A DNA stretch of 33,507 nucleotides from an uncultured Caulobacteraceae bacterium (GTDB taxonomy: Bacteria; Pseudomonadota; Alphaproteobacteria; Caulobacterales; Caulobacteraceae): assembly GCA_937890965.1 (NCBI GenBank), contig CALAEG010000183.1, forward strand, positions 1 to 33,507, written 5' to 3'. The notes under the pieces are model-generated. The model saw nothing but the letters and a program-made list of their open reading frames with translations, searched no databases and was not told the origin of the DNA. Of the stretch, positions 20,997 to 25,632 are shown in pieces (within the stretch, counting starts at the first letter, position 1; every line of letters begins with the position of its first letter). The position numbers and the translations under genes are program-made.

Positions 20997-21967
20997 AGGT
21001 CGGCTCCCGTGGTCTTGACGGACAGGTCCCAGAGCCGCTCGGCGGCTTCCGGGTCGAGCGCGTGGGGCATGACGCCGTGCACCGGGTCGTCTTGGCTCCA
21101 GGCCGCGGCTTGCGCGCAATCTTCCAGATAGAGGCCGCCGATGCCCTCCAGTTCCGGCGCAAGCGCGGCCCAGACGCTGGTCGCGGCGCCCTGCTCGGTC
21201 GACTTGAAGCGGTCGTTGATCTTGCCTTGCTCGTCCATCCAGCCGAAGGCGATCATCTCCTCGCGCGGCAGGTGGCGCTGCAGCGGGGTCATGATGCCGC
21301 CGGGCATGACCGCGTTGGCGGTGACGCCGCGCCCGGCGAAGCGGCGGTTGAAGCCGACCGCGAACAGCGAATTGGCGGTCTTCGACTGGCCGTAGGATTC
21401 CCACTTGTCGTAGGGCCGCGCGCGGTAGTGCGGGTCGTCCCAGTTGATGCCCGACCGGCGGTGGCCGATCGAGCTCAGCTCCACCAGCCGGGCGCTGCGC
21501 CCGGCCTTGGCCGCCTTGGCCATGGCTGGCGCCATCAGCGTGCTCAGGGTGTAGTGGCCGAAGTGGTTGGTGCCGATCTGCATCTCCAGCCCGTCGTCCG
21601 TATAGGACTGCAGACAGGCCATGACTCCGGCATTGTTGATCAGGATGTCGACCGGCGCCCCGCCCCACTCGTCGACGAAGCCGCGTACGGAGGCCTGGTT
21701 GGACAGGTCGAGCCGACGGACGTTCGCCTTCGGCCCCTTGGCGGTGCGGTTGATCTCCGCCGCGACGGTTTCGCCGGCCTCCAGGTTGCGGACGGCCAGG
21801 GTGACCTCGGCGCCAGCCTCGGCGAGCGCGCGGGCGGTCTCGACCCCAATGCCGGTCGCCGCGCCGGTGACGATGGCGCGTCGGCCGCCGAGATCATGGC
21901 CGGCGGCGACCTCGCGGGCGGTGGATTTGGCGCCAAAGGCCGATGTGATGCGTGTGTCTGTGCTCAT
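20993..21967 (-). CDS. Short-chain dehydrogenase, retinol-dehydrogenase/WWOX-like
   Basis: This 324-residue SDR has the cofactor motif TGAATGIG (34-41), NNAG (111-114), the NHFGHYTL signature, Ser166 region (LSSIGHR), Tyr192 and Lys196 (YGQSKTAN). It resembles the retinol-dehydrogenase-like SDR subfamily that reduces or oxidises lipophilic alcohols and aldehydes; the real substrate is not known. It is coupled by ATGA at both ends: downstream to the HSDL2-like gene and upstream to the metallo-hydrolase gene (21964-21967). Confidence 0.9.
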   Translation of the reverse strand: MSTDTRITSAFGAKSTAREVAAGHDLGGRRAIVTGAATGIGVETARALAEAGAEVTLAVRNLEAGETVAAEINRTAKGPKANVRRLDLSNQASVRGFVDEWGGAPVDILINNAGVMACLQSYTDDGLEMQIGTNHFGHYTLSTLMAPAMAKAAKAGRSARLVELSSIGHRRSGINWDDPHYRARPYDKWESYGQSKTANSLFAVGFNRRFAGRGVTANAVMPGGIMTPLQRHLPREEMIAFGWMDEQGKINDRFKSTEQGAATSVWAALAPELEGIGGLYLEDCAQAAAWSQDDPVHGVMPHALDPEAAERLWDLSVKTTGADL

Positions 21968-23043
21968 GCCCGACCATACCAGATGACGCCGGCTTCGTCC
22001 GGGACGGCCTTGGCCAGGCCGCGAACGAGCAGGCAGTTGAGATGCGCCAGGGCCTCGCCCGTGGCCATGCCCAGCAGTTCCGGCCCGATCGAGCGGGCGA
22101 AAAGCGCGCCGAAGATGTCGATAGAGCGCCTTGGCTCGGCCAGGGTGCGCATCAGCCGCTCAAGGCCGCGCTCGTGGCCGCGGATCAGGTGGTCGAGCCG
22201 GGCGTGCAGGCCGAGAAAGGGGTCATTGTGCGCCGGCAGCACCAGCACTTCGTCGGGCACGATGGTCTTGATGCGGGCGAGCGAGGTCAGCCATTCGCTC
22301 AAGGGATCGCCGTCGGGCTCGGTCGGGAAGACCGAGACATTGGACGAGATGCGCGGCAGCACCTGGTCGCCGGAGATCATCAGCTTCAGCTCGGGTTGCC
22401 ACAAGCAGGCGTGCTCCGGCGAATGGCCCGCGCCCACCACCACCCGCCAGCCGTGGTCGCCGATCTGGACGACCTCGCCGTCGGTCATGCGCCGGTAGCT
22501 GTCGGGCAGTTGATGGATATGCCGGCCGAAGCCCCCGAAGCGGGCCTTGTAGTTGTCGATCGCTTCGTCGTCCCAGCCGGCGCCGTGATAGAAGCGGATG
22601 GCGTCCTCGGGGGCCTCGCGGCCGGTGTCTTCCACCAGCATGCGGCATTGCAGATATTCCAGCCGGGTCATCCACAGCCGGCAATCGAACTTGCGCGTCA
22701 GCCAGCCGGCCATGCCGATATGGTCCGGATGCAGGTGGGTGACCAGGACGCGGGTGATCGGCAGTCCGCCCAAGGGACCCGCCAGCACCTTGCGCCAGGC
22801 CCCGGTGGTGCGCTCGGTCTGCATGCCGGTGTCGACCAGCGCCCAGCCGTCGCCATCCTTCAGCGCCCAGACATTGATGAAGCCGAGCGCGCCGTCGAGC
22901 GGCATGCGCATCCAGAGCACGCCCGGCGCGATCTCCACCGCCTCGCCGAAGGCGGGCGTCTCGGCGAGCGGATAGACCAGCGCCCGTCCATGTCCGCCAG
23001 CCTGGTCGCGCGTCGCCTCGGCCACCCCTTGCCTCCGTCCCAT
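21964..23043 (-). CDS. MBL-fold metallo-hydrolase
   Basis: This 359-residue metallo-beta-lactamase-fold hydrolase has the dinuclear zinc motif THLHPDH (His103, His105, Asp107, His108), a further ligand in GAGHSPEH, the Asp-bearing SGDQVLPRIS segment and a final His in LPAHNDPF. It resembles the glyoxalase-II/LACTB2-like group, whose members hydrolyse thioesters or similar bonds. The frame opens at 23184, but the ATG at 23043 fits the family. As first gene of a coupled chain with two dehydrogenases and a HAD phosphatase, a role in acyl-CoA or lipid catabolism is plausible inference. Confidence 0.88.
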   Translation of the reverse strand: MGRRQGVAEATRDQAGGHGRALVYPLAETPAFGEAVEIAPGVLWMRMPLDGALGFINVWALKDGDGWALVDTGMQTERTTGAWRKVLAGPLGGLPITRVLVTHLHPDHIGMAGWLTRKFDCRLWMTRLEYLQCRMLVEDTGREAPEDAIRFYHGAGWDDEAIDNYKARFGGFGRHIHQLPDSYRRMTDGEVVQIGDHGWRVVVGAGHSPEHACLWQPELKLMISGDQVLPRISSNVSVFPTEPDGDPLSEWLTSLARIKTIVPDEVLVLPAHNDPFLGLHARLDHLIRGHERGLERLMRTLAEPRRSIDIFGALFARSIGPELLGMATGEALAHLNCLLVRGLAKAVPDEAGVIWYGRA

Positions 23044-23123
23044 CCTTAGCCTTTGGCGGCCTAAACCGCGCCAGACGATGCGTCCAGCCGCTTGCCCAGA
23101 TTGCGCCACGCATGGGCGCCAAC

Positions 23124-23152
23124 TTGACCGGGGCGCCGGGCGCGGGTTTAAG
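23124..23152 (+). promoter_or_regulatory. Probable sigma-70-type promoter for the five-repeat exported protein
   Basis: TTGACC (23124-23129) and TTTAAG (23147-23152) are separated by 17 bases, matching the -35 well and the -10 at 4 of 6 positions. Transcription would start near 23159, about 28 bases ahead of the ATG at 23187, with AGGAG (23177-23181) as ribosome binding site. Confidence 0.45.
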
Positions 23153-23186
23153 CTCCGCCTCAAACGAGGAACGTCCAGGAGCAACC

Positions 23187-24539
23187 ATGTCGAGACTTTC
23201 AGGATTTGGCCTGGCCGCGGCCGCTTTGGTGATCACGCTGATCACCGCGACAGCGAGCTTCGCGGCCCCGCCCCCGCCCGGGGCGGCGGCCATCGATCCG
23301 GCGATGCGCACCGCCGGCATGAAGGCCGCGCCGGGGCTGATCACCGAGGCGAACGTCCCCTGCACCCTCGCCGACGCACGCGAACTTGGCACCGGCACGG
23401 CCGCCGACAAGTCCCAGACGACGATCTACGAGATCGCCTGCAAAGAGGGTCTTGGCTACATCATCGGCAAGGAAACCAAGGCCGGCGCGCCGCTGCTGAC
23501 CTACAACTGTTTGCAGACGTCCCTGCCCATGGCGGACGGCAAGCCGAACACCCTGGCCTGCGCGCTGCCGGCGAACGCCAACCCGGCGCAGGGCCTGCAG
23601 CCGATCGTTGCTCAGTCCGGGCGCAATTGCACGGTCGACAAGGCGCGCTACCTGGGTCCGACGCCTGACAAACAAGTCTACGAAGTGTCCTGCCAAAACG
23701 GCCAGGGGCTGGTCCTGCTGGTCCCGATCGCCGGCGGCGCGCCCGAGGCCGACAACTGTCTCGCCTATGGCGGCGCGGCGGGCGCCATCAAATGCACGCT
23801 GACCACGGCCGACCAGGAGATCGCCCCGCTCGACGCGATCGCGGCCTCCAGCGGCAAGTGCGCCGCGGTCAAGACCAAGCGTTACGTGCTGACCACCACC
23901 GACGGGTCGGACTATTTCGAAGTCGCCTGCGGCGACGGCAAGGGCTACATGCTTCAGGTCGATCACACCGGCAAGCTGGCCGACACCATCGCCTGCGCCG
24001 AGGCCTTCCAGATCGGCGGCGGCTGCACCCTGACCGACGCGCGACAGGCCCTGACCCAGCAGAACGCCGTCTACACGGACCTTTCGAAGAAGGCCGGCTT
24101 TGACTGCGCGGTGTCGAAATACGCCCTCTTCCCGAGTACCGATCCGACTAAGGACATCGTCGAGGTGGCCTGCTCCAACCGGCCTGACGGTGGCGTCGGC
24201 ATCTTCCCAGCCCATGGTCCGGCCCATGTCTTTGACTGCCTGCGCTCGCAGGACGAGGGCTACAAGTGCAGCTACACGCCGGTCGAGGCGCTCTTCCCGC
24301 ACCTCGATGCCGAGCTCAAGGCCAAGAACAAGGGCGGTTGCGTTGTGTCGGGGGCGCGGCCGTTCGCCCGTGGCGACGACGGTTCGGACTTCGTCGAGGT
24401 CGCCTGCGCCGACGGCGGGCCGGGCTGGGTGCTGGTCTATCCGGTCGGCGCCGCTTCGCCGTCGGAATTGCGCAACTGCGTCGAGGTGGCCAAACTGGCC
24501 GGCGGCTGTCAGCTGCCGTCGAACCGCAAGAAGACCTAG
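23187..24539 (+). CDS. Exported protein of five four-cysteine repeats, function unknown
   Basis: I do not recognise this 450-residue protein. It starts with a signal peptide (hydrophobic 7-26, likely cut after ASFA-A), so it is probably periplasmic or secreted. The rest has exactly 20 cysteines in five groups of four: 59/85/108/125, 148/169/191/203, 225/248/270/280, 307/329/351/361 and 385/408/431/441. The period is 77-89 residues. The second cysteine of each group sits in a V/I-E-V-A-C-type strand followed by a Gly-rich turn and a hydrophobic strand, and the third in an xNC/xDC/IAC context. With no odd cysteine, disulfide bonds within each repeat are likely. The ATG at 23187 has AGGAG at good spacing; the frame open from 23112 is ignored. 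It converges on ccrM with a 13-base gap. Confidence 0.82.
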   Translation: MSRLSGFGLAAAALVITLITATASFAAPPPPGAAAIDPAMRTAGMKAAPGLITEANVPCTLADARELGTGTAADKSQTTIYEIACKEGLGYIIGKETKAGAPLLTYNCLQTSLPMADGKPNTLACALPANANPAQGLQPIVAQSGRNCTVDKARYLGPTPDKQVYEVSCQNGQGLVLLVPIAGGAPEADNCLAYGGAAGAIKCTLTTADQEIAPLDAIAASSGKCAAVKTKRYVLTTTDGSDYFEVACGDGKGYMLQVDHTGKLADTIACAEAFQIGGGCTLTDARQALTQQNAVYTDLSKKAGFDCAVSKYALFPSTDPTKDIVEVACSNRPDGGVGIFPAHGPAHVFDCLRSQDEGYKCSYTPVEALFPHLDAELKAKNKGGCVVSGARPFARGDDGSDFVEVACADGGPGWVLVYPVGAASPSELRNCVEVAKLAGGCQLPSNRKKT

Positions 24540-24552
24540 CTGGCTTTCGGCT

Positions 24553-25632
<1,080 letters not shown>

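Follow-up and report, generated by a model that had tools for sequence, protein, structure and literature searches.

The window, a stretch of 33,507 nucleotides of DNA from an uncultured member of the Caulobacteraceae, carries on its + strand (23187..24539) a gene for a protein of 450 residues plus stop, and the locus raises the question of what this cysteine-rich product is and what it might do in the cell. The ATG at 23187 is preceded, at a distance of 5 bp, by a Shine-Dalgarno sequence recognized from the sequence (AGGAG, 23177..23181, + strand), and CCAGGAG upstream of the ATG is kept among orthologues. The frame is also open upstream of the ATG (ORF 23112-24539), the in-frame start at 23112 being a mechanical one, and the opposite strand holds a 499-codon ORF (23199-24698); the extended frame and the opposite-strand ORF look like by-products of high GC content. 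Judged by eye, the N-terminus is a Sec-type signal sequence, MSRLSGFGLAAAALVITLITATASFA followed by APPPP, without a lipobox; the probable signal peptide spans residues 1-26 (23187..23264, + strand), with cleavage between TASFA and APPPP. The N-termini of orthologues are comparable, and residues 1-20 have a pLDDT below 50 in the full-length AlphaFold2 model. The protein is acidic (pI 5.3) and predicted to be soluble, and there are 20 cysteines in its 423 mature residues, which is unusual for a periplasmic protein.

The cysteines are distributed in five sets of four, at residues 59, 85, 108 and 125; 148, 169, 191 and 203; 225, 248, 270 and 280; 307, 329, 351 and 361; and 385, 407, 431 and 441, with none outside these sets. 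Gaps within the successive sets are 26/23/17, 21/22/12, 23/22/10, 22/22/10 and 22/24/10, and the first cysteines of neighbouring sets are 89, 77, 82 and 78 residues apart. The five sets and the period of 77-89 residues reported in the initial annotation are thus as described, and only its range for the second gap, 22-23, has to be corrected to 22-24. The V-E-V-A-C strand that it saw in each set reads YEIAC, YEVSC, FEVAC, VEVAC and VEVAC in sets 1 to 5. When the observed gaps were permuted 200,000 times, 64 of the resulting orders were as regular; scattering 20 cysteines at random gave no such case in 200,000 trials. Each set lies in one repeat on the + strand: repeat 1 at 23298..23582 (residues 38-132), repeat 2 at 23583..23807 (residues 133-207), repeat 3 at 23808..24038 (residues 208-284), repeat 4 at 24039..24281 (residues 285-365) and repeat 5 at 24282..24524 (residues 366-446). 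HMMs built from other genomes, with the index being tested left out, matched these with E values of 1e-14, 3.7e-21, 1.5e-17, 1.8e-15 and 3.8e-17, respectively, and an HMM built from one index alone matched the other four indices at 3e-6 or better. On sequence grounds, then, the five sets are true homologous repeats of about 77-85 residues, and the repeat profile detects no further copy in the organism's own genome. The module could be defined as a helix, a cysteine, about 20-30 residues ending in ExxC, 18-26 residues, a third cysteine, 5-22 residues, and a fourth cysteine.

Whether this module belongs to a known family was approached by searches against Pfam, NCBIfam and PDB sequences. None of these gave a match for the window protein, and nothing useful came from 36 members of the family, 105 single repeats, their profiles or a consensus; the impression that no named domain has this pattern is thereby upheld, including by the search with repeat profiles that had been proposed as a check. 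The scattered weak Pfam matches, to Inhibitor_I69 (E 0.0027, in three of the 105 repeats) and DUF5061 (E 0.0098), are below a useful level. BLIP (PF07467) was not matched in Pfam by the protein, the 36 members, the 105 repeats or the consensus. PepSY (PF03413) was likewise not matched by the protein, the 36 members or the consensus, and is absent among the 25 best-supported families listed for the single repeats; as a control, this model does recognise other proteins in 20 of the 21 relatives, and two such proteins are encoded at other loci of the window's own genome. When the repeat profile was aligned by hhalign with 26 PepSY domains of the same bacteria, the probability was 0.6% over 14 columns, and for the whole-protein profile it was 0.3%. 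A kinship with PepSY by sequence, which was considered, is consequently supported neither by Pfam nor by profile-profile comparison (below 1%). In the literature, no paper naming a Caulobacter orthologue was found.

A structure prediction gives a view of the architecture of the module. AlphaFold2 modelled the full chain with a mean pLDDT of 90.3 and a pTM of 0.75, and repeat 3 alone, the single-repeat prediction called for at the outset, as a confident helix with a four-stranded sheet (pLDDT 92.1, pTM 0.82). In this model the helix (residues 8-14) is followed by antiparallel strands at 21-29, 35-41, 46-51 and 57-62, and, of the four cysteines, the first immediately precedes strand 1, the second lies where strand 2 ends, the third directly follows strand 4 and the fourth comes ten residues later. 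The proposal of a disulfide-rich periplasmic repeat is well supported by the Sec-type signal, the even and invariant number of cysteines and the confident fold of the repeat, from which we infer two disulfides per module. By the strand register of the model, the simplest arrangement would probably be C1-C2, closing the first hairpin, with C3-C4 in the last loop; C1-C3 with C2-C4 would be an alternative, and not the simplest one. A C2-C3 bond would be too long, because strands 2 and 4 end at the same sheet edge but two strands apart, at about 10 Å. Covariation of cysteine losses gave no signal on the pairing, with zero losses among the repeats.

Comparison of the single repeat with known structures returned domains of a helix plus four strands, among them the N-lobes of macrolide kinases (Z 6.6), stefin B (69 residues at Z 5.8 and rmsd 3.0 Å), YpmB (2gu3; 63 residues at Z 5.6 and rmsd 2.9 Å), BDI_1975 (Z 5.2), UipA (Z 5.1), Rv0603 (Z 4.6) and the DsbG N-domain (Z 4.4). 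Apart from the kinase lobes, these matches cover 55-69 of the 77 residues, at Z 4.3-5.8 and rmsd 2.1-3.2 Å. All Z values are below 7, with the macrolide kinase N-lobes at 6.6, and the resemblance of the model to these structures may reflect a mere common arrangement. Several matches bring to mind a group in which YpmB, BLIP, DUF2874 and SmpA/OmlA form a single superfamily of periplasmic exported domains, often in tandem (1-4 copies), built of four antiparallel strands plus a helix and proposed to act by binding and inhibiting a partner; both YpmB and the N-domain of the DsbC type are in, or linked with, this superfamily (PMC2954215). The superfamily takes in BLIP (PF07467), DUF2874 (PF11396), PepSY (PF03413), SmpA/OmlA (PF04355) and DUF3192. 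Like them, the four-cysteine module is of this size, often tandem and often without other domains; it is predicted to be exported and to have the secondary structure and topology of a helix and four antiparallel strands, and its copy number is variable, as is that of DUF2874 (1-4). In contrast, no sequence relationship was found, and the module is distinguished by four invariant cysteines, a near-invariant glutamate, up to five copies and a distribution mainly in one bacterial family. BLIP-like and PepSY fold members occur among the structural matches at Z 4-6, a level too low to separate kin from arrangement, and BLIP, DUF2874 and SmpA/OmlA are not among the rows listed, which the making of the list leaves uninformative. 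The PepSY proteins TseB (YpmB) and CopD have the helix and four strands predicted for the module, but these are membrane-anchored with two domains, whereas the window protein is predicted to be soluble and to have five, each with its own four-cysteine frame. Similarly, the cystatin-like fold (stefin B, the N-terminal domains of DsbC/DsbG and of amine oxidase) also has a helix on a four-stranded antiparallel sheet, but there is no sequence similarity, and Z values of this size also arise by chance arrangement. The module therefore looks, and may work, like the BLIP/PepSY/cystatin-like group, and is not filed there.

Conservation of the cysteine frame is strict. Among 557 distinct repeat segments found by HMM, no cysteine has been lost: 546 are complete, and the other 11 are without the last cysteine only through an early end of the local alignment. 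In one segment, from the window itself, the first cysteine is displaced by one column. The glutamate three residues before the second cysteine is present in 545 of the 546 complete repeats, and the glycine that follows this cysteine is near-invariant. Outside the Cys/Gly/Glu frame conservation is low, the mean column identity between repeats being 23-25%. A loss of spacing in orthologues, named in the initial annotation as evidence that would speak against the repeat unit, was looked for and is absent: all full-length five-repeat orthologues have the 20 cysteines with the same spacing, one of them with an additional cysteine in the signal region.

A gene of the five-repeat family is present in 195 of 199 sampled Caulobacteraceae genomes and in 22 of 22 genera, and the relatives with names belong to Caulobacter, Phenylobacterium and further Caulobacteraceae. 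Of the four genomes in which the gene is missing, three are 63-85% complete; the fourth (G157, genus g22), 99% complete in 590 contigs, gave no copy in a search with the repeat profile, which reflects either gene loss or an assembly gap. The genome contigs yielded 119 relatives when searched with the conserved alignment and none when searched with a single sequence, since short peptide patterns are too specific. The survey of repeat number that had been suggested shows 1, 2, 3, 4 or 5 copies per protein, with five in most genera, four in genera g16 and g17 and three in numerous members of g3, which is probably the genus Brevundimonas. One-repeat and two-repeat paralogues are present in g22, g3 and g11, and genomes of g15 frequently carry two or three paralogues with five repeats. 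Some g22 genomes (G100, G115) have a two-repeat paralogue about 20-30 kb from the five-repeat gene. Beyond the family, genomes from other families of the same order gave no copy of the module save for one marginal match, and in other families of the class it occurs in few proteins among a few hundred genomes. These include a three-repeat protein (G740) and two single-repeat proteins. One of the latter (G405; L201:1495-1893, − strand) is a membrane-anchored protein of 132 residues with a spacing of 25/22/10, for which none of the 23 further genomes from its family gave a match; its gene stands near Lon-like and HU-like ORFs. The other (G718; L212:1213-1632, a reverse-strand frame position) is exported, about 131 residues long, and has a spacing of 37/21/11 and a different consensus, KCANGKNYVVGVDPTGKGKVLEC, and may head a separate single-domain family; a pairwise search with it found nothing in 240 genomes, so this form is rare or too diverged. 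Matches in G548 (order) and G416 (class; a methyltransferase-like ORF by its look) were marginal and were not counted as relatives.

The history of the repeats can be read from their index. In a tree of 91 repeats these group by position in the protein, with 8 changes for 6 groups against a shuffled mean of 57.6, and repeat 4 is the sole index to form one fully supported separate branch. Repeats of the same index share a mean identity of 35% across genomes, and different indices within one protein 25%. The five-repeat architecture therefore predates the diversification of the family, and the repeats have not been homogenised. Some conserved residues are specific to an index, such as NRPDGG in repeat 4 and the LPxN with which repeats 1 and 5 end.

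Upstream of the gene, at 63 bp before the ATG, lies a housekeeping-type promoter element on the + strand (23124..23152), with TTGACC at 23124-23129 and TTTAAG at 23147-23152, separated by 17 bp. The pattern TTGAC[CG]-N16-18-[CT]TTA[AT]G has one + strand match in the whole window, and an equivalent element is present in 42 of 56 orthologous loci, about 60-69 bp (in a few, 78-88 bp) before the ATG, against a background expectation of 0.0035 per 120 bp of one strand. This conserved promoter-like sequence suggests steady, sigma-70-type expression. The divergent neighbour encodes an MBL-fold metallo-hydrolase (PF00753, 2.6e-26; PF21221, 2.5e-07), the true start of which is probably inside the open frame at 21964..23184 (− strand); it adjoins the orthologue in most loci of the family and in four of four congeners, often with an SDR gene next. 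A signal peptide was looked for at the N-termini of these MBL-fold neighbours and none was seen, so the enzyme is probably cytosolic. The idea of a secreted beta-lactamase and inhibitor pair with this neighbour was dropped, as there are no signal peptides and no beta-lactamase model comes near the cut-off. On the other side, 13 bp past the stop codon, is the convergent ccrM (24553..25632, − strand; N6_N4_Mtase plus RAMA). This adjacency is missing from the four congeneric genomes compared and from almost every family locus inspected, and the loci with the conserved MBL-fold neighbour are without it; the earlier guess that the proximity of ccrM may be due to chance is supported by this, and the gene does not belong to a conserved ccrM-linked cell-cycle unit. 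Only in two g15 genomes does a paralogue adjoin ccrM: a diverged one with five repeats, placed immediately downstream (L049:4805-7341, L233:12556-15185), in tandem order there as against convergent order in the window.

What the protein does has to be considered in parts. That it consists of exported, disulfide-locked repeats, each of a helix plus four strands, is very likely. A binding or regulatory role, suggested by the fold class, has roughly even chances, and the same applies to the reading preferred here, in which the protein would be a soluble chain of five disulfide-locked modules that bind envelope partner proteins in the periplasm. The product would be made constitutively and exported by Sec to the periplasm, where DsbA-type oxidation would lock each module with two disulfides; the five modules would then use their exposed sheet faces and loops to bind one or more envelope proteins, which this multivalent contact would modulate or scaffold. 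As the five repeats have been kept distinct since before the family diversified, each module might have its own share of the work. A precedent for such contacts is given by CopD and TseB, which are tied to penicillin-binding proteins, although the extracellular PepSY domains of CopD did not bind the transpeptidase domains tested (PMC10653890). No operon links the gene to a function, and the enzyme encoded by the conserved neighbour is probably cytosolic, which counts against an envelope binding role. The earlier idea of a binding or structural protein is a plausible one, and its second half, an abundant, rigid and protease-resistant rod or matrix in the periplasm or at the surface with no specific partner, is unlikely while far from negligible. 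Such a purely structural envelope protein would be in keeping with the conserved housekeeping-type promoter element, the tandem repeats with probable disulfides, the acidic and soluble nature of the protein and the low conservation outside the frame; yet the repeats have not been homogenised and retain their index-specific residues (NRPDGG, LPxN), as would be expected of distinct contacts.

Other explanations assign a different role to the fold or to the cysteines. The repeats could be the blades of a five-bladed beta-propeller, arranged in a ring that acts as a lectin or binds a ligand: a count of five repeats, each four-stranded, would agree with this, and a Foldseek search with the full-chain model puts propeller lectins at the head of its list (8q83, PLL5; E 2.3e-06, probability 1.00). 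The match to PLL/PHL lectins is, however, a local one of four-stranded units, single blades only, with a TM-score of 0.10-0.14 against all listed propellers (0.13 globally for PLL/PHL) and an rmsd above 20 Å (about 22 Å). Moreover, every repeat of the window protein has a helix without counterpart in propeller blades, and the single-repeat matches to propellers mostly begin at residues 7-19, partly or wholly excluding that helix, whereas helix-plus-sheet matches begin at residues 1-4. Relatives with 1, 2, 3 or 4 repeats would be unable to close the ring, and a copy number of 1-5 therefore fits independent modules better; the propeller is accordingly a very improbable reading. A periplasmic thiol/disulfide buffer or oxidative-folding component, with redox-active rather than structural cysteines, would account for the high cysteine content and recalls the N-terminal dimerisation domains of DsbG among the weak structural neighbours. 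It is nevertheless improbable, given that there are no CXXC pairs and no thioredoxin-type secondary structure, and that the cysteines are fixed beside strand ends with zero losses, as in structural disulfides. The cysteine content is also all that speaks for a thiolate metal-binding protein, which is hardly credible: the cysteines are far apart in sequence, without metallothionein-type CXC clusters, the periplasm is oxidising, and the lone Pfam match to metallothionein (one among 105 repeats, E 0.039) is a chance one.

Caulobacter serves as a model organism for the biology of the bacterial envelope and cell cycle, and the present analysis points to an unnamed gene that nearly every species of the Caulobacteraceae retains, with its promoter conserved and its cysteine frame strict. 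The four-cysteine frame offers a ready domain definition for a module missing from Pfam and NCBIfam. More tentatively, and less likely than not, this module may represent a separate, undescribed family of envelope domains, which would have originated in Alphaproteobacteria as single-copy exported or membrane-anchored proteins, expanded to a fixed number of five copies with distinct functions in the ancestor of the Caulobacteraceae, and become there a core periplasmic regulator of envelope enzymes.
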